Assembly: GCA_029213305.1 (NCBI GenBank)
Contig: JARGPA010000015.1
Location: forward strand, 1-64,000
DNA length: 64,000 bases
DNA from: Phycisphaerales bacterium
Lineage (GTDB): Bacteria; Planctomycetota; Phycisphaerae; Phycisphaerales; UBA1924
Direction: 5' to 3'
The translations under genes were made by a program, and so were the position numbers. The notes beneath the pieces were generated by a model. The model was not told the origin of the DNA. It worked only from the letters and a program-made list of their open reading frames with translations, and did not search any database. Positions 4,657 through 15,031 of the stretch are shown here, piece by piece. How positions within the stretch are numbered: position 1 is the first letter of the stretch; the number at the start of each line of letters is the position of its first letter.

Positions 4657-4676
4657 GCTCATTTGTGTAAATGAGC
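4657..4676 (+). promoter_or_regulatory. Leader hairpin GCTCATTT-GTGT-AAATGAGC
   Basis: A perfect 8-base inverted repeat with a 4-base loop, ending 14 bases before the GAAGGAG ribosome binding site (4691-4697) of the PEP-CTERM gene. In RNA this would be a stable stem right upstream of the ribosome site, suited to mRNA stabilisation or translational control. As DNA it could bind a dimeric repressor. Function is inferred only from position. Confidence 0.5.
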
Positions 4677-4703
4677 GAAAAGAGTAGAGAGAAGGAGTTT
4701 CAA

Positions 4704-5417
4704 ATGAAGAATGTTATCTTTGCAGGTGCACTCGCTGCGCTCGCAGGCACTGCATCCGCAGGTGTCATCGCATCAACCAGTTTCGAAAATGCAATGGTTG
4801 ATGGTCAGTATGTAGATACTGGTGACGCGGCTACTGATCACGACTTGGTCAACAACGCAGGTCAATCAGTTGTCGATTTTATCGCTGATGGCACAGAAAT
4901 GGGCTTTGACGCATACTACCGAAATACTCGCAACGATGTAGGTTTGACCGATGGCGATTTTGTTGGTGCTACGAGTTTCACAGGCACAGTTGGTTCATAC
5001 ACAGACGGTGTTCAAGGTTACGAAATGCAAGATGCAGACGGAACCATGGGTATGTCGTTTGATACAGTAAACTTCGCAGGCGCTTGGAGTGTGAGCCTCG
5101 ACTTGTTCGTTCAAACTACAGGCTGGGAAACAGACGACAGCATCCACATCTGGGCAGAAGTTGACGGCGGATCAACAGTTGATATCCTCAACACAATTGG
5201 TTCAGATGTAAACGATCTTGGTATCGAAGGCGCTTGGATGTCACTAAACCTCGATCTCAGCGCATACACTACAGCAACATTGTTCGTTGAACTCGAATCT
5301 AACTCAGGTTCAGAATCAATCTACCTTGACAATGTTTCGTTCCGTGCAGTTCCAACTCCAGGTGCAGTTGCATTGCTCGGACTCGGTGGACTCGTTGGCG
5401 CTCGTCGTCGCCGCTGA
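4704..5417 (+). CDS. PEP-CTERM sorted surface protein
   Basis: Exported protein of about 237 residues. An upstream in-frame ATG (4671) falls inside the leader hairpin; the ATG at 4704 is preferred because GAAGGAG sits 6 bases before it and the product then starts with a clean signal peptide (MKNVIFAGALAALAGTASA). The mature part is acidic, rich in Asp, Gly, Ser and Thr, and looks like a beta-sandwich (residues about 25-210). The C-terminus VPTPGAVALLGLGGLVGAR plus three Arg is a PEP-CTERM signal: a Pro-rich motif, a hydrophobic helix and a basic stop. Such proteins are cut by an exosortase and anchored or released at the cell surface. No exosortase gene is in the window. No catalytic motif was seen, so a structural or matrix role is likely. 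Confidence 0.85.
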   Translation: MKNVIFAGALAALAGTASAGVIASTSFENAMVDGQYVDTGDAATDHDLVNNAGQSVVDFIADGTEMGFDAYYRNTRNDVGLTDGDFVGATSFTGTVGSYTDGVQGYEMQDADGTMGMSFDTVNFAGAWSVSLDLFVQTTGWETDDSIHIWAEVDGGSTVDILNTIGSDVNDLGIEGAWMSLNLDLSAYTTATLFVELESNSGSESIYLDNVSFRAVPTPGAVALLGLGGLVGARRRR

Positions 5418-5530: not shown

Positions 5531-6292
5531 ATGAGCGACACCGGAAACAACTTAAGCACGCTGCTCACGCCATGTCTTCGTTGTGGGTATCAAATCAAAT
5601 GTGTCGTTTCTGAGCAATGCTCTGAGTGTGGATACATCTATCAGAAGCGTGATGAGATCACTTCTCAACGACGATGTGATTTGGTTAAAAATCGTAAATC
5701 ACTCACCCGGACATCTTTGTTCGGCTGGCTCGCGGTCTGGATTTTTTACAGTGTCTCTGGAATGGTGGCAGTTTGGATAGTTGACTCTTCGGATGCTTTG
5801 GTGTTCAGTTTAACGATTGCCTCCGTGCTTGCCATGCTCATTGGAGGTAGTTTGCTCTTGGGGTGGATTGCGTCAAGATTTGCTCCTGAACATCAAAGAA
5901 CAATTCTTTGGATTACTTGGCTCAAAACACTTCCGATTATTCATCTCCCTTGGTTAAGTATCGCAGGATTTACAGCTGCCGGCACATTGATTTCTGTGGC
6001 CGCTTCAATCTTAATGGATGACCCAGTTGATAGTTATGAGGCAGACAAACAAGGAATCCTTGTGATGGGAATCATATTGGTCAGCTTTGTGGTTTGGACT
6101 ATCGGTATGTTTATATTGTGCTTCCTCCTAGGTGCTCGTATTCGTGAGTTATCAGATGATTATCAACTACATCGTTGTCAACCCGGGCTAGGGATGACTT
6201 GGATACTTTCGTATGTAACCTGGATTGGAGCTTGTTTAATAGGTTTTATGGGTGGTTTTCTGGGTTCAGGTGTCATTGCTTCGTTTCATTAA
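5531..6292 (+). CDS. Zinc-ribbon multi-pass membrane protein
   Basis: Unrecognised 253-residue protein. The N-terminal 40 residues carry two CxxC pairs (CLRCGY and CSECGY), a zinc ribbon like those on many small planctomycete membrane proteins. The rest has about five hydrophobic helices (around residues 58-80, 85-110, 125-160, 175-200 and 225-250). The architecture points to an inner-membrane protein with a cytoplasmic zinc finger; the role is unknown. It starts right after the terminator of the upstream gene, so its promoter must be in or beside the short interval 5513-5530 or upstream of it. Confidence 0.7.
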   Translation: MSDTGNNLSTLLTPCLRCGYQIKCVVSEQCSECGYIYQKRDEITSQRRCDLVKNRKSLTRTSLFGWLAVWIFYSVSGMVAVWIVDSSDALVFSLTIASVLAMLIGGSLLLGWIASRFAPEHQRTILWITWLKTLPIIHLPWLSIAGFTAAGTLISVAASILMDDPVDSYEADKQGILVMGIILVSFVVWTIGMFILCFLLGARIRELSDDYQLHRCQPGLGMTWILSYVTWIGACLIGFMGGFLGSGVIASFH

Positions 6293-6397
6293 TTTGTGCT
6301 TTGATTCGGTTCGTTGCCTATGCTCTATGCCCATCTCTGTAGGTGCTGAGATGGTTCAAACACTGAATACAGATCGATTTAACTGGAGAAATGGGCA

Positions 6398-6868
6398 ATG
6401 GAAACAACACTGATTATCCTCAAGCCAGACGCGGTACAACGCGGGCTCATGGGCAAGATCATTACTCGCTTTGAAGAAAAGGGACTCGCAATTGTCGGCA
6501 TGAAAATGATGACTATCTCGCAAGATCTCGCCGGCACACATTACGGCGATCATGCCGGCAAGCCATTTTATAACGGGCTTGTCTCGTTCATGACTTCATC
6601 ACCAGTCTGTGTTCTCGCAGTTCGCGGCGTTGGAGCAATCGCAATCGCACGCTCGATGATGGGTGCGACTTTCGGTTCAAAGGCTGACGCTGGAACTATC
6701 CGTGGCGATTTCGGAGTTTCTAACTCATTCAACTTGATTCACGGATCCGACTCAGCTGAAGCAGCTGCGAAGGAAATTGGATTGTTCTTCAACGAAGGAG
6801 ATATCCAAGATCTTGATCGTGCAATCGAAGGTTGGGTATACGACATGTCCGGCGGCGATCCTGAGTAA
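6398..6868 (+). CDS. ndk: Nucleoside diphosphate kinase
   Basis: Transfers the gamma-phosphate of ATP to NDPs through a phosphohistidine. The 156-residue sequence is a standard NDK: N-terminal TLIILKPDAVQRGLMGKII, and the active-site His115 in the motif SNSFNLIHGSDS. The C-terminus is slightly longer than in the E. coli enzyme (143 residues). It is a monocistronic gene with its own terminator immediately downstream. All expected nucleotide-binding residues appear to be present, so it should be active. Confidence 0.97.
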   Translation: METTLIILKPDAVQRGLMGKIITRFEEKGLAIVGMKMMTISQDLAGTHYGDHAGKPFYNGLVSFMTSSPVCVLAVRGVGAIAIARSMMGATFGSKADAGTIRGDFGVSNSFNLIHGSDSAEAAAKEIGLFFNEGDIQDLDRAIEGWVYDMSGGDPE

Positions 6869-6893
6869 TCGCTCAACAGTTCGATATACACAT

Positions 6894-6924
6894 AAAACAC
6901 TCTGTGTCATACAGAGTGTTTTTT
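6894..6924 (+). terminator. Terminator after ndk
   Basis: The long perfect stem AAAACACTCTGT / ACAGAGTGTTTT with a 5-base loop ends in a T-run. Its A-rich 5' arm also provides a T-run on the other strand, so it may work for csrA as well. Confidence 0.9.
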
Positions 6925-6960
6925 AGTTGATGAATACTTCGAAATTGAGAGTCGATTCGT

Positions 6961-7200
6961 TCAATGAACCGAAGCTGGTTTGATTTCACCGATTACAGAA
7001 GGGGAGTCATCAATTTCGATGACGATCTGGTCTGCAATCTCACGGCGATGAATTTCGACATCTCTTGGGAAGTCGAATGCAACTCGTACTCGTTCGCCTT
7101 TAACTGATGCAATGCGAACAACGCCGATCGGGTTCTTTGGATCCCCAATGACAACTTCTTCGCCTTCTCTTCTTGTGATTACCAGCATCCCTTGCTCCAT
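6961..7200 (-). CDS. csrA: CsrA-family RNA-binding regulator
   Basis: Small homodimeric translational regulator that binds GGA-containing mRNA leaders. The core MLVITRREGEEVVIGD...VKGERVRVAFDFPRDVEIHRREI matches CsrA, including the conserved HR-EI segment whose Arg contacts RNA. Compared with E. coli CsrA there is a short insertion (PKNPIG) in the second strand region, a form common in planctomycetes. Translation may start at residue 1 or at Met5 (7188), which aligns with the usual CsrA start; neither has a strong ribosome site. fliW and flagellin genes, frequent partners of csrA, are not in the window. Confidence 0.92.
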   Translation of the reverse strand: MEQGMLVITRREGEEVVIGDPKNPIGVVRIASVKGERVRVAFDFPRDVEIHRREIADQIVIEIDDSPSVIGEIKPASVH

Positions 7201-7390
7201 AACTCGCTCAAACCTTCGTTGGTTAGCTTATTCGAGTATATCACAGAGATTGGGCACGACCAAGCAAAAACGCTGCAACCTGTTCAATGGGCTTGAATTA
7301 GGTATTTGAATGCGCAGAATTGCTCAAAAGCCTATTCTAAGTGACTAACTGGGTGTCAGGAATCGGTTTAGAGGTAGGATCGAGTGCAAA

Positions 7391-9489: not shown

Positions 9490-10713
9490 ATGCTACACTC
9501 GTTTGTGAAACTATCTGAAACAGAACAACGAGTTGCCGATGTGATCGCTCAGCGATCTTCTTTTCTTCTTGAAGATTTGAGATTACATGTTGGGATTCCA
9601 ACAGGTGGAAACAACCAACCAGCGATCGAAGAGACTCGTGAACGGTTCGGTATACGCTTGCAAGAACTTGGTGCCAAAACACATTTAATTCAACCTGATT
9701 CTAAACCTGAGTGGTTACTCGGAGGCGAATCTGGTGCGTATATGCCTCCAACTGCTGTGTGTGAGCGACTCAATGGTGCATCAAATGGACGAGTGATGAT
9801 CGCAGGTCATCTAGATACAGTTCACGATCCAAATGGGGACTTCCTTGATCTCAACATTGCTCCAGGAGGTAAAACGGCAATCGGTCCTGGATGTGTTGAC
9901 ATGAAAGGTGGTCTGGTAATCGCAGTTGCGGCGCTCGAAGCATTAGAAGAATGTGGAGTACCTGCAAACTGGACATTCACCTTGAATGGTGATGAAGAAA
10001 CCGGAACATATCACTCTGAAAATGCATTACGCGAACAAGCAAAGTTACACGATTTTGGGCTTGCACTTGAACCAGCACTACCCGGAGGTGAACTCGCGAT
10101 TGAACGCATGGGCTCAGGCCAGTTCATGATCGAAACAATAGGAAAGAGTGCTCATGTCGGACGAGCATTCACAGAAGGTCGATCTGCGGTTATAGAGCTC
10201 GCACGATGTATTTTGGAATCCTCAAAGTTCCCAGAACCTGATCGTGGGAAGATCTTGAATATCGGACCACTGAAGGGTGGGGTTGCGACGAACGCAGTCC
10301 CGGATTCTGCAGCTGCGTGGGGGAATGTCCGCTTTGCAGACAACTCAATTGCCGATGAGTTAGCAGTGCAACTTGATGCTTTACAAACTGATCAGGGCGA
10401 AATCCCAGGAGTAATCGTTCGACGAAGTTTTAATCGTCCTGCGAAACCGTTGATTCCAGAAGTTGAAGCATTGGGATTGCGTGCACGATCTGTTGCAGAA
10501 GCATTGGGACAAAAACTACCCTTTGCATCGACAGGTGGAGTTTGCGACGGCAATGTATTGCAAAGCGCAGGACTCCCAACAATTGACACCCTCGGAGTCC
10601 GAGGCGGCGGGTTACATACACCCGATGAATGGATTGATTTGACAAGTCTTGTTGAACGCTGTCAGTTACTTGCGATTTTGGTTGCAAGATTGTCTGCAGG
10701 CGGTTCCGAGTAG
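9490..10713 (+). CDS. M20 zinc peptidase / N-acyl-amino-acid deacylase
   Basis: Dinuclear zinc hydrolase of the M20 family, closest in style to glutamate carboxypeptidase (CPG2). The ligand set is complete: AGHLDTVHD (His, Asp), the bridging Asp in GPGCVDMKGG, the catalytic Glu pair in NGDEETGT, Glu in ALEP and the final His in GGGLHTPDEW. The lid domain lies between residues about 190 and 310. A GTG at 9463 would extend the frame by nine residues; the ATG at 9490 is preferred, though no ribosome site marks either. It ends 30 bases before the class III aminotransferase of an AST-like cluster. It may therefore deacylate N-succinylglutamate in place of AstE (inference). Confidence 0.88.
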   Translation: MLHSFVKLSETEQRVADVIAQRSSFLLEDLRLHVGIPTGGNNQPAIEETRERFGIRLQELGAKTHLIQPDSKPEWLLGGESGAYMPPTAVCERLNGASNGRVMIAGHLDTVHDPNGDFLDLNIAPGGKTAIGPGCVDMKGGLVIAVAALEALEECGVPANWTFTLNGDEETGTYHSENALREQAKLHDFGLALEPALPGGELAIERMGSGQFMIETIGKSAHVGRAFTEGRSAVIELARCILESSKFPEPDRGKILNIGPLKGGVATNAVPDSAAAWGNVRFADNSIADELAVQLDALQTDQGEIPGVIVRRSFNRPAKPLIPEVEALGLRARSVAEALGQKLPFASTGGVCDGNVLQSAGLPTIDTLGVRGGGLHTPDEWIDLTSLVERCQLLAILVARLSAGGSE

Positions 10714-10743
10714 ATTCGTAGTTTTAAATGACAGGAGTTGAAC

Positions 10744-12189
10744 ATGACATCAATAACAAGTACCGGTACCGTTGGAAACGAGCTTCTACACGATGAGAAG
10801 ATTCATTCTGCATTCAACTCGATTGTAGAACAAGTCGCTGCTTACTCAGCACAGATTACAGATACTCGACCTGCAAATCTTGATATTGCAGATGATTTCA
10901 AAGCAATGCTCTTTGAAGCAGGAAAAATCAAAGGGCGCCCTTTGATGTACCCAAGCATCTCGTCAGGAGTTGGCAATGGAGCACTCTGCGAAATGGCAGA
11001 TGGTTCCGTGAAGTGGGACATGCTCACTGGTATTGGTGTTCACTTTCTAGGACACTCAAACCCCAAAGTAATCAAAGCTCAACTCGACGCAGCACTTCTT
11101 GATACAACCAAGCACGGAAACCTTCAAACATCGTTTGATGCAGTAACCTTCGGACAACGGCTTGTTAAGCATGCATCTAAGTCATCAAAATTAGCTCATG
11201 CTTTTATTACAACTTCAGGCGCGATGGCAAACGAGAGTGCGATTAAAGTGTGTTACCAGAAGCATGCTCCTGCAAGTAGAGTCCTTGCATTCGAGAACTG
11301 TTTCATGGGCCGAAGTGTTACCATGGCACAAATCGGAGATAGTGCAGGCGGCCGACAAGGCGTACCACTTTCAACTCTCGTAGATTATGTCCCATTCTGG
11401 AACAAGGATCGTGCAGATGCAATGGGTGGAGCAACGAAGTTTATTGATTACACAATCAAGAGACTCGAACGCTACAACACTCGATACGCTGGGCAAATCT
11501 CCACTTTCATCTTTGAGCTTGTTCAAGGAGAAGGTGGATTCAATGTTTCAAACCCAGACTATCTGAAAGCTTTAATGGAGTTCTGTAGAGCAAACCGTAT
11601 CGCGGTTTGGGCCGACGAAATTCAATCCTTCGGCCGAACAGAACAAATGTTTGCATACGAATACTACGGCCTCGGCGAATACATCGATGTCTTGACAGTT
11701 GGCAAAATGACACAAGCTTGTGCAACCATGTTTACTGAGGAATACAATCCGAAACCGGGCCTACTCTCAGGGACTTTCACTGGTGCGACTGTTGATTTTA
11801 CAGTTGGGAATGTATTACTTGATGAACTAGCTTCAGAAGGGAACTACGGCCCTGAAGGCAAGTTCGCACAACATCAACGCGAGTTCAGAAAACAAGTTGA
11901 TGCATTAGTCGCGAAACATCCAGATTGGTTCCCAGAAACAGAAGGCATTGATGGATTCGCAGGCGGCGTCGGCGGCATGATGCGATTCACTCCATTTGGC
12001 GGAAACAAAGCAAAGATAGGAAAGATCTGTCGAACTGCTTATGACGAAGGCGTGATTTGTTTCTATTGCGGCCATGGACCATTCCATGTGCGTATGTTAC
12101 CGCCATTGCCTGTGATGAAGATGGAAGATTGGCCTCGTGTGTTCGAATGTCTTGAACGAGCAATGGCGAAAGTCGCATCGGGGAGCTAA
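10744..12189 (+). CDS. Class III aminotransferase (AstC-like role)
   Basis: PLP-dependent aminotransferase of fold type I, 481 residues. The cofactor lysine is Lys321 in TVGKMTQA, preceded by the PLP-ring Asp in VWADEIQSFGRT. The motif GAMANESAIKVCYQKH matches the phosphate-binding loop. ATG 10744 is chosen over the TTG at 10738 because AGGAG (10733-10737) is correctly spaced for it. It lies 2 bases upstream of astA and upstream of astD, which points to succinylornithine 2-oxoglutarate transamination giving succinylglutamate semialdehyde (inference from context). The sequence resembles lysine-epsilon or ornithine-type class III enzymes more than canonical AstC/ArgD, so the substrate is not certain. 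Confidence 0.87.
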   Translation: MTSITSTGTVGNELLHDEKIHSAFNSIVEQVAAYSAQITDTRPANLDIADDFKAMLFEAGKIKGRPLMYPSISSGVGNGALCEMADGSVKWDMLTGIGVHFLGHSNPKVIKAQLDAALLDTTKHGNLQTSFDAVTFGQRLVKHASKSSKLAHAFITTSGAMANESAIKVCYQKHAPASRVLAFENCFMGRSVTMAQIGDSAGGRQGVPLSTLVDYVPFWNKDRADAMGGATKFIDYTIKRLERYNTRYAGQISTFIFELVQGEGGFNVSNPDYLKALMEFCRANRIAVWADEIQSFGRTEQMFAYEYYGLGEYIDVLTVGKMTQACATMFTEEYNPKPGLLSGTFTGATVDFTVGNVLLDELASEGNYGPEGKFAQHQREFRKQVDALVAKHPDWFPETEGIDGFAGGVGGMMRFTPFGGNKAKIGKICRTAYDEGVICFYCGHGPFHVRMLPPLPVMKMEDWPRVFECLERAMAKVASGS

Positions 12190-12191
12190 AT

Positions 12192-13418
12192 ATGCCTAAA
12201 AGCGCACCTATGTATGTCATCCGGCGAGCGATGGCGAGCGATCTTCCGACACTTCATAAGTTGTCGAAGATGGTTCATTTCATCAACTTGCCACCAGACC
12301 AGGAAATCATCTCTGGTAAAATTCGCAACTCTCGCAAGAGCTTTACGCGTGCAGCTCGTGATGCGAAATCCGTTCACAAACCCAAAGCTACCGCTGCTTC
12401 TGGTGGGCTATCAGAGAAGACTGCACTTGCGGATATTTTCATGTTTGTCCTAGAAGAGATGAATACTGAAGGTTGTATTGGTACAAGCCAACTCGTATCT
12501 CAGATGGGTGGAGTTGGGCATCCTAACGTTTGTTTCAAACTGGAACAACGGGAGAAATATACCAACGATTTGAAGTTTGGAACGAAACATACCGTTGCTC
12601 GTGTTCATCTTGATGAAAGCGGACCAACTGAGCTGGGCGGATTAATCTTGCAGCCTTCATTCCGCGGACACAAGATGAAACTTGGCCGCTTTGTCGCACT
12701 TGTTCGTTTTCATTTCCTTGCACTACATCGAAAAATGTTCAGACCAACAATTCTTGCAGAACTGATGGCTCCGATCTCGAGTGATGGAACTTCTCTTGTG
12801 TGGGACACTCTAGGACGAAGATTTATTCCTTTGAGCTATGAAGAAGCAGATCGGTTCTGTCAGTATTCTCGCGAGTTTATGACTGAACTATTACCTGAGG
12901 GTGATATCCATTTATCGTTGCTACCCCCTCAAGCAAGAGCACAGATCGGTGAGGTTGGTCCCGAAACACTCCCTGCGAGGAGGATGCTCGAGAGGCTGGG
13001 ATTTGAATACAACGGATTCGTTGATCCATTTGATGGTGGCCCGTATGTCACTGCAAATACTGATGAAATTCAAATTGTAAAAGACACCTTCAAAGCAAAC
13101 ATTGGAGCAACAATCCATCACGATCAAACTGATCAAGTTGGAATCGTTTCTGTATTAAATAACGAAGGTGATTTTCGCGCGATACAAACTGCGTTCCAAG
13201 TAGATCGTTCAGGAAAACTACGTCTTACATCAGAAGCAGTAGTTGCGTTACATGCAGAAGTCGGCGCAGAAGCAGGATGCACTCCAATGCGTGTCCCGAT
13301 CGAACCAGGACGAGGTAGCAAACGTACCAAATCTGTGACTAAAAAAACATCATCAAAGAAGAAGACATCCAAAAAAACCTCAAAGAAGAAAACTGCTCGC
13401 CGCAGTGCTTCTTCGTGA
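12192..13418 (+). CDS. astA: Arginine/ornithine N-succinyltransferase
   Basis: Transfers succinyl from succinyl-CoA to the alpha-amino group of arginine or ornithine, the first step of the AST pathway. The GNAT-like AstA fold is clear: the N-terminal YVIRRAMASDLPTLHKLSK, the central FVALVRFHFLALHRKMF and AELMAP, and the C-terminal signature ARRMLERLGFEYNGF followed by DPFDGGPYV. The enzyme core (about 345 residues) matches family length. An unusual lysine-rich tail follows (about 373-408), with the repeat KKTSKKTSKK, similar to the tail of Top6B. It sits 2 bases after the aminotransferase stop. Because no astB is present, ornithine rather than arginine may be the true substrate (inference). 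Confidence 0.92.
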   Translation: MPKSAPMYVIRRAMASDLPTLHKLSKMVHFINLPPDQEIISGKIRNSRKSFTRAARDAKSVHKPKATAASGGLSEKTALADIFMFVLEEMNTEGCIGTSQLVSQMGGVGHPNVCFKLEQREKYTNDLKFGTKHTVARVHLDESGPTELGGLILQPSFRGHKMKLGRFVALVRFHFLALHRKMFRPTILAELMAPISSDGTSLVWDTLGRRFIPLSYEEADRFCQYSREFMTELLPEGDIHLSLLPPQARAQIGEVGPETLPARRMLERLGFEYNGFVDPFDGGPYVTANTDEIQIVKDTFKANIGATIHHDQTDQVGIVSVLNNEGDFRAIQTAFQVDRSGKLRLTSEAVVALHAEVGAEAGCTPMRVPIEPGRGSKRTKSVTKKTSSKKKTSKKTSKKKTARRSASS

Positions 13419-13461
13419 TAGAGATAGTTTTACATATATTAAAACATGAAGGTGGTGCCCG

Positions 13462-15012
13462 ATGAGTACATCATTGAACCATGAACTCGTACCTGTTGCT
13501 CGAAACTTGATCAATGGGCAGTGGATTGATATTCCAGGCAATCAAATCGTTTCAACAATGCCCGCTGACCCCGATACGGTAGTATGGCAAGGCACAACTC
13601 TACCGACTCAAATGAGTGAAGCAATTCAATCCGCTCGATCTGCATCATCGAAATGGGCATCTTGGCCGATCGCAAACCGCATCAAGGTTCTCCGTCGTTT
13701 CCAAGAAATTGCAAAGTCACGTTCCGAACAACTCGGGGATCTTGTATCTGACGAAACCGGAAAAGCGCTTTGGGAATCACGAGCTGAAGCAGGATTGATC
13801 GCTGCAAAAGTTGACATCACACTCGAAGAAGGAGAGTACACCGGACGCCATCGAGTAACACCATTTTCGTTTGCGCTCAATGAAACAAAAGAAGCACATT
13901 GTCTCTTCAAACCTCATGGAATATTAGCTGTTGTTGGGCCATTCAATTTTCCTGCACATCTTCCCAACGGACATATTCTTCCCGCGTTACTCACAGGAAA
14001 CACAATTGTTTTCAAACCTTCTGACAAAGCACCCGCAGTGGGGCAGTTCCTCTGCGAAATGTACCAAGAAGCACTCGAAGCCGAAGGGGCGCCCACAGGT
14101 GTTCTCAATATGGTCCATGGTCAGGTGAAAGAATCAGTAGAGCTTTGTTCAAGTGAGGAAGTAGATGGAGTTCTGTTCACAGGTTCGTGGGCTGCTGGCC
14201 GATCGATTTTAGAAGCAAACCTTGATCAACCAGGCAAAATCATCGCACTTGAAATGGGTGGGAACAACCCGGCGATTATTATGCCTGATGCAGATCTACA
14301 TCAAGCAATTGTTGAAGTAACCCGATGCGCTTTCAATACAACCGGTCAAAGATGCACAAGCACCCGAAGATTGATTGTACATAAAGATGTAGCAGATAGA
14401 GTTGTACCAGCATTATTGAAAGCAGCTTCAAACTTAATAATCGGAGAACCTCGATCCACGGATCCTGTCTTTATGGGGCCGATCATTTCTGAAGACGCCA
14501 TGAACTCTGTTCTCTCGTTCCAGTCAAAGCTTCAAGCAACCGGCGGAAGAATCTTGATGGAATCTACACAGATTCCCGATCTCAAAGGCTGGTACATCAC
14601 TCCAGGTATTGTTGAAGTTGATCGTTTCACGATAGATACTGATGACTGTGGTTGTGACGAAGAAGTCTTCGGACCATTACTCAGGATTAGTATCGTGGAT
14701 TCGTTTGAAGACGCGATCACACAAGCAAACGCAACCCGATATGGTTTAAGCGCAGCAATCTTTACTCAAGATAGTGCTTTGAAAGATCGTTTTGTTCTTG
14801 AATGTCGTGCTGGGTGCCTCAACATCAACTGTGGAACTGCAGGAGCAAGTTCCAAACTCCCATTCGGCGGCCTAGGTCAATCAGGAAATCATCGTCCAGC
14901 AGGAGCATTCGCACTTGATTACACAGCTTACCCAGTTGCAAGCATGGTCGAAAACGGGAATGCTTGTATGATCCCAAGTGGGATGCGCATGGAAAAAAGC
15001 TGGATCGAATAA
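13462..15012 (+). CDS. astD: Succinylglutamate semialdehyde dehydrogenase
   Basis: NAD(P)-dependent aldehyde dehydrogenase of 516 residues that oxidises N-succinylglutamate 5-semialdehyde. The catalytic Glu lies in ALEMGGNNPAII and the nucleophilic Cys in NTTGQRCTSTRR. The cofactor loop VVGPFNFPAHLPNGHI and the end motif KLPFGGLGQSGNHRPAG are characteristic of AstD within the ALDH superfamily. It follows astA after 43 bases. That gap holds an AT-rich inverted repeat (13427-13445, GTTTTA / TAAAAC) that could be an operator or a weak internal promoter. It is the last gene of the succinyltransferase cluster. Confidence 0.93.
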   Translation: MSTSLNHELVPVARNLINGQWIDIPGNQIVSTMPADPDTVVWQGTTLPTQMSEAIQSARSASSKWASWPIANRIKVLRRFQEIAKSRSEQLGDLVSDETGKALWESRAEAGLIAAKVDITLEEGEYTGRHRVTPFSFALNETKEAHCLFKPHGILAVVGPFNFPAHLPNGHILPALLTGNTIVFKPSDKAPAVGQFLCEMYQEALEAEGAPTGVLNMVHGQVKESVELCSSEEVDGVLFTGSWAAGRSILEANLDQPGKIIALEMGGNNPAIIMPDADLHQAIVEVTRCAFNTTGQRCTSTRRLIVHKDVADRVVPALLKAASNLIIGEPRSTDPVFMGPIISEDAMNSVLSFQSKLQATGGRILMESTQIPDLKGWYITPGIVEVDRFTIDTDDCGCDEEVFGPLLRISIVDSFEDAITQANATRYGLSAAIFTQDSALKDRFVLECRAGCLNINCGTAGASSKLPFGGLGQSGNHRPAGAFALDYTAYPVASMVENGNACMIPSGMRMEKSWIE

Positions 15013-15031
15013 CTGAATATACTCTTAACGA

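Follow-up and report, generated by a model that had tools for sequence, protein, structure and literature searches.

A putative variant of the arginine succinyltransferase pathway in Phycisphaerae, with AstB and a ureohydrolase in alternation

Results and discussion

The operon and its conservation

The window, by which we mean the whole stretch of 64,000 nucleotides analysed here, comes from a Phycisphaerales genome of 2.93 Mb (38 contigs, 92% complete). Four genes on the same strand, separated by 30, 2 and 43 bp, encode an M20 metallohydrolase, a class III aminotransferase (AT3), AstA and an AstD-like dehydrogenase (Table 1), which bears out the tight run reported in the preliminary description of this DNA. 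The ORF tool places the start of AT3 at a TTG (10738); an AGGAG motif lies upstream of the ATG at 10744. The best NCBIfam models for the dehydrogenase were PRK09457 (482.8 of the 514 bits required) and TIGR03240 (458.8 of 579), both below cut-off, and its catalytic-cysteine motif GQRCT is conserved. Elsewhere in the window, at 4671-5417, lies a gene for an exported protein with a C-terminal PEP-CTERM-like tail (PTPGAVALLGLGGLVGARRRR), a type of tail common in planctomycetes.

Table 1. Features of the ast-like operon in the window
Feature	Position	Strand	Match or remark
M20 metallohydrolase (CPG2-like, PRK07338-like)	9490..10713	+	Pfam Peptidase_M20 and M20_dimer
Class III aminotransferase (AT3)	10744..12189	+	PF00202, 145.8 bits
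AstA, arginine/ornithine N2-succinyltransferase	12192..13418	+	PF04958, 266.5 bits
AstD-like succinylglutamate-semialdehyde dehydrogenase	13462..15012	+	Pfam Aldedh; PRK09457 and TIGR03240 nearest
Junction of astD and the next gene, C11 (C11 on the minus strand)	15013..15031	.	No ureohydrolase (URE) gene; flank synteny

The order M20-AT3-AstA-AstD, whose conservation the preliminary description had proposed to check, recurs in dozens of relatives, at identities down to 38% (28 Phycisphaerae loci), and is therefore not a chance arrangement. It is kept in the families f1, f2, f4, f5 and f6, and AstA is present in 50 of the 61 Phycisphaerae genomes of our first survey.

Search of the genome for AstB and AstE

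The preliminary description saw neither AstB nor AstE and suggested a search of the whole genome for both, their discovery elsewhere being what would refute its reading. For AstB the statement holds for the operon and fails for the genome, where a full-length copy lies on another contig (G000:C34:121303-122622; PF04996, 652 bits). This protein scored 592 bits with TIGR03241, above the cut-off, and its Glu/His/Cys triad is intact in the alignment, with all of E174, H248 and C365 conserved (E. coli AstB numbering). For AstE the statement stands genome-wide: a profile search of the 92%-complete genome with PF04952 gave no match, TIGR03242 gave only a partial match of 44 bits (cut-off 305.65), and AstE above the cut-off was found in none of the 61 Phycisphaerae genomes searched.

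At its own locus (L085, 2793-8629) astB comes after a set of metal ABC transporter genes, for a binding protein, an ATPase and two permeases, the gap to the last permease gene being 8 bp. A homologous permease gene adjoins astB in nine other genomes of the genus. Ureohydrolases require manganese and AstB does not, so the pairing of astB with a metal transporter may exceed chance.

An M20 hydrolase as probable replacement of AstE

The best of all NCBIfam models for the M20 protein was PRK07338 (NF005602), at 298.5 bits and thus below the cut-off of 357, and its nearest solved structures are those of carboxypeptidase G2 (CPG2). CPG2 frees glutamate from N-acyl glutamates. H107, D109, D137, E169, E170, E194 and H376 were invariant in an alignment of 13 sequences from Phycisphaerae, Legionella and Sphingomonas. 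Hydrolases of the same NCBIfam type stand beside astA and astB, with no astE in the operon, in Legionella adelaidensis (hydrolase-astA-astD-astB) and Sphingomonas parapaucimobilis (hydrolase-astA-astB); they score 549 and 546 bits with PRK07338, above the cut-off of this model, which carries only the name 'hydrolase'. Unlike the window, these Legionella and Sphingomonadales operons lack AT3 and include astB, and their M20 proteins are 31-33% identical to that of the window. The recurrence of this M20 type in their ast operons indicates that the replacement of AstE is wider than the window.

The suggestion that a CPG2-like M20 enzyme stands in for AstE is thus strengthened by the missing AstE, the linkage to astA and astD and the same enzyme type in two proteobacterial groups, and we predict that it cleaves N-succinylglutamate to glutamate and succinate. 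Sequence is a poor guide to the substrates of M20 enzymes, and with the window protein below its equivalog cut-off it might instead act on dipeptides, folate-like compounds or acetylornithine, leaving succinylglutamate to an unrecognised enzyme. We regard this as unlikely in view of the linkage of M20 to astA and astD across the Phycisphaerae families examined, the same linkage in the two proteobacterial groups whose operons lack astE, and the glutamate-releasing activity of its nearest characterised relative. A literature search combining succinylarginine and M20 returned only papers whose titles look unrelated.

AT3, a candidate succinylornithine transaminase

AT3 scored 74.6 bits with the AstC model TIGR03246, which requires 610, and 120 bits with the ArgD model TIGR00707, which requires 410. 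It is outside both families by these cut-offs, and we propose it as a candidate N2-succinylornithine transaminase in the place of AstC; almost all the relatives examined keep it linked to AstA. The genome encodes two other clear class III aminotransferases (L087 and L088), one in a cluster resembling pyrimidine degradation, with dihydropyrimidinase, ureidopropionase and a transporter, and another next to a lysine aminomutase-like gene and CoA-transferase subunits. Plasmid searches with AT3 returned distant transaminases only.

ArgD above the model cut-off was found neither in the genome nor in its family, and in E. coli the substrates of ArgD and AstC overlap. AT3 and the M20 enzyme might for these reasons fill the ArgD and ArgE roles in arginine biosynthesis as much as they serve catabolism. 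Biosynthesis has no use for AstA or the oxidative AstD, however, and AT3 reaches only about 119 bits with the ArgD model, so we give this reading very little credence and retain the catabolic one.

The slot after astD is shared by a ureohydrolase and AstB

In genomes of families f1 and f2, the slot directly after astD is occupied by a gene for a PF00491 ureohydrolase, here called URE. In one f6 genome (G140) the order is M20-AT3-AstA-AstD-AstB, and AstB also follows AstD in three further genomes (G133, G049 and G060). The window shares the synteny NDK-HYP-M20-AT3-AstA-AstD-(URE)-C11-TilS-RR-PepP with locus L099, in which URE, at 10764-11798, lies between AstD and C11; only 19 bp separate these two genes in the window, and URE is thus cleanly present or absent between identical flanks. 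Another URE gene is that of L100, at 6276-7250. Six other loci (L199, L021, L023, L090, L104 and L233) have URE in the same place and keep part of the flanks of the window.

We compared the distribution of AstB and URE in the 61 genomes and in a second survey of 251 genomes of the order with a completeness of at least 85%; most are metagenome-assembled, so that absence calls inherit assembly gaps. AstB was present in 29 of the 61; its carriers are almost the whole of the window's genus, family f2 and part of f5 and f6. The other genera of the window's family in this sample, 16 in number, gave no AstB, and neither did f4. All 21 AstB-less genomes of those genera and f4 carry URE, 53-87% identical to the copy in G039; in 13 of the 21 the URE gene is only a few kilobases from astA-astD on one contig. 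Among the 50 genomes with AstA, 27 had AstB only, 21 URE only, two neither (one of them 56% complete) and none both; nine of the 11 without AstA had neither. In the second survey URE was present in 109 genomes and AstB in 91, with one genome carrying both where 39.5 would be expected under independence (Fisher 2e-29, a value inflated by shared ancestry and, in its raw form, weakened by the incompleteness of the assemblies).

AstB is present, in place of URE, in 20 of the 21 genomes of the window's genus, and three genera contain both states, namely g38 (one genome with URE, six with AstB), g90 (nine and four) and g121 (three and one). A tree of the operon proteins, concatenated, has supported branches that require four or more changes between URE and AstB; the AstA tree requires three or more. 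Mutual exclusion, a common operon slot and repeated switches are thus all observed for URE as an analogue of AstB. The operon tree places the window's genus among genera that carry URE, and the AstB proteins of its family are scattered in the AstB tree, with moderate support. For these two reasons we infer as the likely direction that the genus lost URE and acquired an unlinked astB, and this would explain why the operon of the window appears without astB.

Two genomes depart from the pattern. The only genome of the 251 with both genes (G245; L233, 7957-9027, and L234, 9820-11211) may have been caught in transition, or else its assembly is contaminated. Another (G057, L068), although 98% complete, has the M20-AT3-AstA-AstD operon and neither AstB nor URE; its second step may be solved in a third way, or its route may start from ornithine only.

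A proposed modified AST pathway from arginine to glutamate and succinate

AstA, AstB and a protein close to AstD are present in the genome, but AstC and AstE fall short in the curated-model searches, and we therefore class the system as a variant of the AST pathway. In the proposed pathway AstA would convert arginine to N2-succinylarginine, from which the unlinked AstB would form N2-succinylornithine, 2 NH3 and CO2; AT3 would then yield succinylglutamate semialdehyde, AstD succinylglutamate, and the M20 hydrolase glutamate and succinate. The AstC step would be carried out by a distant enzyme and the AstE step by an unrelated one. In related genera URE, encoded right behind astD, would take over from AstB by hydrolysing N2-succinylarginine to succinylornithine and urea; the window's genus would have lost URE from this slot and use the unlinked astB instead. 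We consider it reasonably probable that the operon thus provides all but one of the five steps of a modified AST pathway, with URE serving the second step in relatives and astB in the window's genus, even with M20 and AstD below their NCBIfam equivalog cut-offs and AT3 far from AstC. Every substrate and activity named here is a prediction, as is the route as a whole from arginine to glutamate and succinate.

The preliminary description had instead read the four genes as an ornithine succinyltransferase route without AstB. A genome with full-length AstB has no need of an ornithine-only route, and neither of its two PF00491 proteins is a RocF arginase by NCBIfam scoring, one being agmatinase-like and the other HutG-like. 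The notion of an operon working without AstB fails for this genome and has some merit for its relatives, many of which lack AstB but have the ureohydrolase in its place. The unlinked position of astB would suit an ornithine route in the window, as would the ornithine-dedicated partial ast operons of Acinetobacter described in PMC12375414. Nevertheless, the near-constant presence of AstB in the genus, in replacement of URE, the failure to find a RocF-type arginase in the genome and the occurrence of AstA there as a single copy in profile searches make this route distinctly improbable.

What URE may do

The nearest solved structures to URE are 3-guanidinopropionase, proclavaminate amidinohydrolase and guanidinobutyrase, with which it shares the metal ligands and the catalytic His and Glu. 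It differs from all three in its own GPLNT motif, in having Val or Ala at a conserved Asn position and in its linkage to ast genes. URE scored 196-197 bits with the agmatinase model TIGR01230, above the cut-off of 174.3; separate agmatinase-like paralogues (L197 and L216) pass as well, so that this match leaves the substrate of URE unsettled. With the RocF model TIGR01229 it reached 59-72 bits (cut-off 227.6), and the canonical arginase motif DxNTP...SGNxHG is absent from its alignment. Alignment and NCBIfam scores together led us to reject the PF00491 proteins beside the operon as RocF arginases.

Proclavaminate amidinohydrolase has as its substrate an arginine derivative substituted at N2 (PMC6097109), which sets a precedent for action on succinylarginine. 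Judged by its sequence and setting, URE is probably an N2-succinylarginine ureohydrolase that yields succinylornithine and urea, and the best reading is that the two unrelated enzymes AstB and URE do the same job. The main alternative is that URE is an arginase in the AstB-less relatives, forming ornithine and urea from arginine, with AstA then succinylating ornithine; it also requires the substrate of AstA to change at each switch between URE and AstB. URE belongs to the ureohydrolase family and adjoins the operon, an ornithine-specific relative of AstA is known (AstO of Acinetobacter baumannii), and AstA of E. coli and of Pseudomonas aeruginosa uses both substrates, the last two points as stated in PMC12375414.

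Against an arginase stands, besides the RocF score, a difference at two residues. In canonical arginases we take Asn130 to bind the alpha-carboxylate and Asp183 the alpha-amino group; URE has Val or Ala at the former position and part of a GPLN stretch at the latter. This argument is weak, because plant-type arginases differ there too. The AstA proteins of URE and AstB genomes are moreover interleaved in the AstA tree, and no alignment column was found that differs fully between the URE and AstB lineages, which favours an unchanged AstA substrate and hence action of URE after AstA. On balance, we think the arginase reading, with the changes in AstA that it entails, rather doubtful, and fairly clearly prefer URE acting after AstA to an arginase acting before it. 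Under either reading URE is predicted to stand in for AstB in bringing arginine into the pathway.

Comparison with known systems

Compared with astCADBE of E. coli, the window has homologues of AstA and AstD in the operon and a true AstB in the genome, and the first, second and fourth steps are expected to follow the same chemistry. AstC is exchanged for a distant class III aminotransferase and AstE for an M20 enzyme, and AstB is unlinked; in many relatives AstB is replaced by the ureohydrolase. The astNOP genes of A. baumannii likewise form a partial ast operon around an AstA homologue (AstO), with ornithine entering below AstB. Unlike the window, A. baumannii also has a complete astCADBE with AstE, and the excerpted text of that report (PMC12375414) describes no M20 enzyme or ureohydrolase with astNOP.

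In the papers searched, no reaction of the URE type on succinylarginine is known. Searches joining succinylarginine with ureohydrolase, or succinylornithine with agmatinase, found no papers in the collection used, although such work may exist elsewhere in the literature. Gap filling of the GapMind type (PMC9007349) covers citrullinase, and its text mentions neither astA nor a desuccinylase.

The evidence leans, by a little, towards an AST pathway of a second kind, which releases urea. In it an N2-succinylarginine ureohydrolase, now automatically annotated as agmatinase, would have swapped repeatedly with AstB within one bacterial order, in operons that also employ an M20 enzyme as desuccinylase and a succinylornithine transaminase of a new type. 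This version has probably gone unrecognised. If it exists, the AST pathway would be modular, three of its five steps being open to enzymes that are distant or unrelated, and genomes that at present score as lacking AstB, AstC or AstE would count as degraders of arginine. For the ureohydrolase superfamily, URE would represent a new reaction hidden under the agmatinase name, and the choice between AstB and URE would set whether arginine nitrogen leaves as ammonia or as urea.

Variation in AstA

In the window AstA, E. coli L125 is conserved and E. coli H229 is replaced by Gly256 (12957-12959). H229 is the proposed catalytic histidine of proteobacterial AstA, including that of Acinetobacter. In nearly all AstA proteins of families f1, f2 and f4 the position holds Gly, Ser or Asn, whichever second-step enzyme is present. 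With the proposed catalytic residue replaced in this way, the mechanism and substrate of AstA could differ in the Phycisphaerae clade, a point against the pathway proposed above.

Four genomes of the window's genus (G004, G007, G006 and G003) carry a strongly divergent AstA, about 30% identical to that of the window (L081, 3490-4773; L082, 6980-8317; L083, 6806-8092; L084, 5724-6995). The M20, AT3 and AstD proteins around it are 70-80% identical, and the residue corresponding to E. coli L125 is Asn. The pattern suggests that a single gene of the operon has been replaced in situ or has changed very rapidly.
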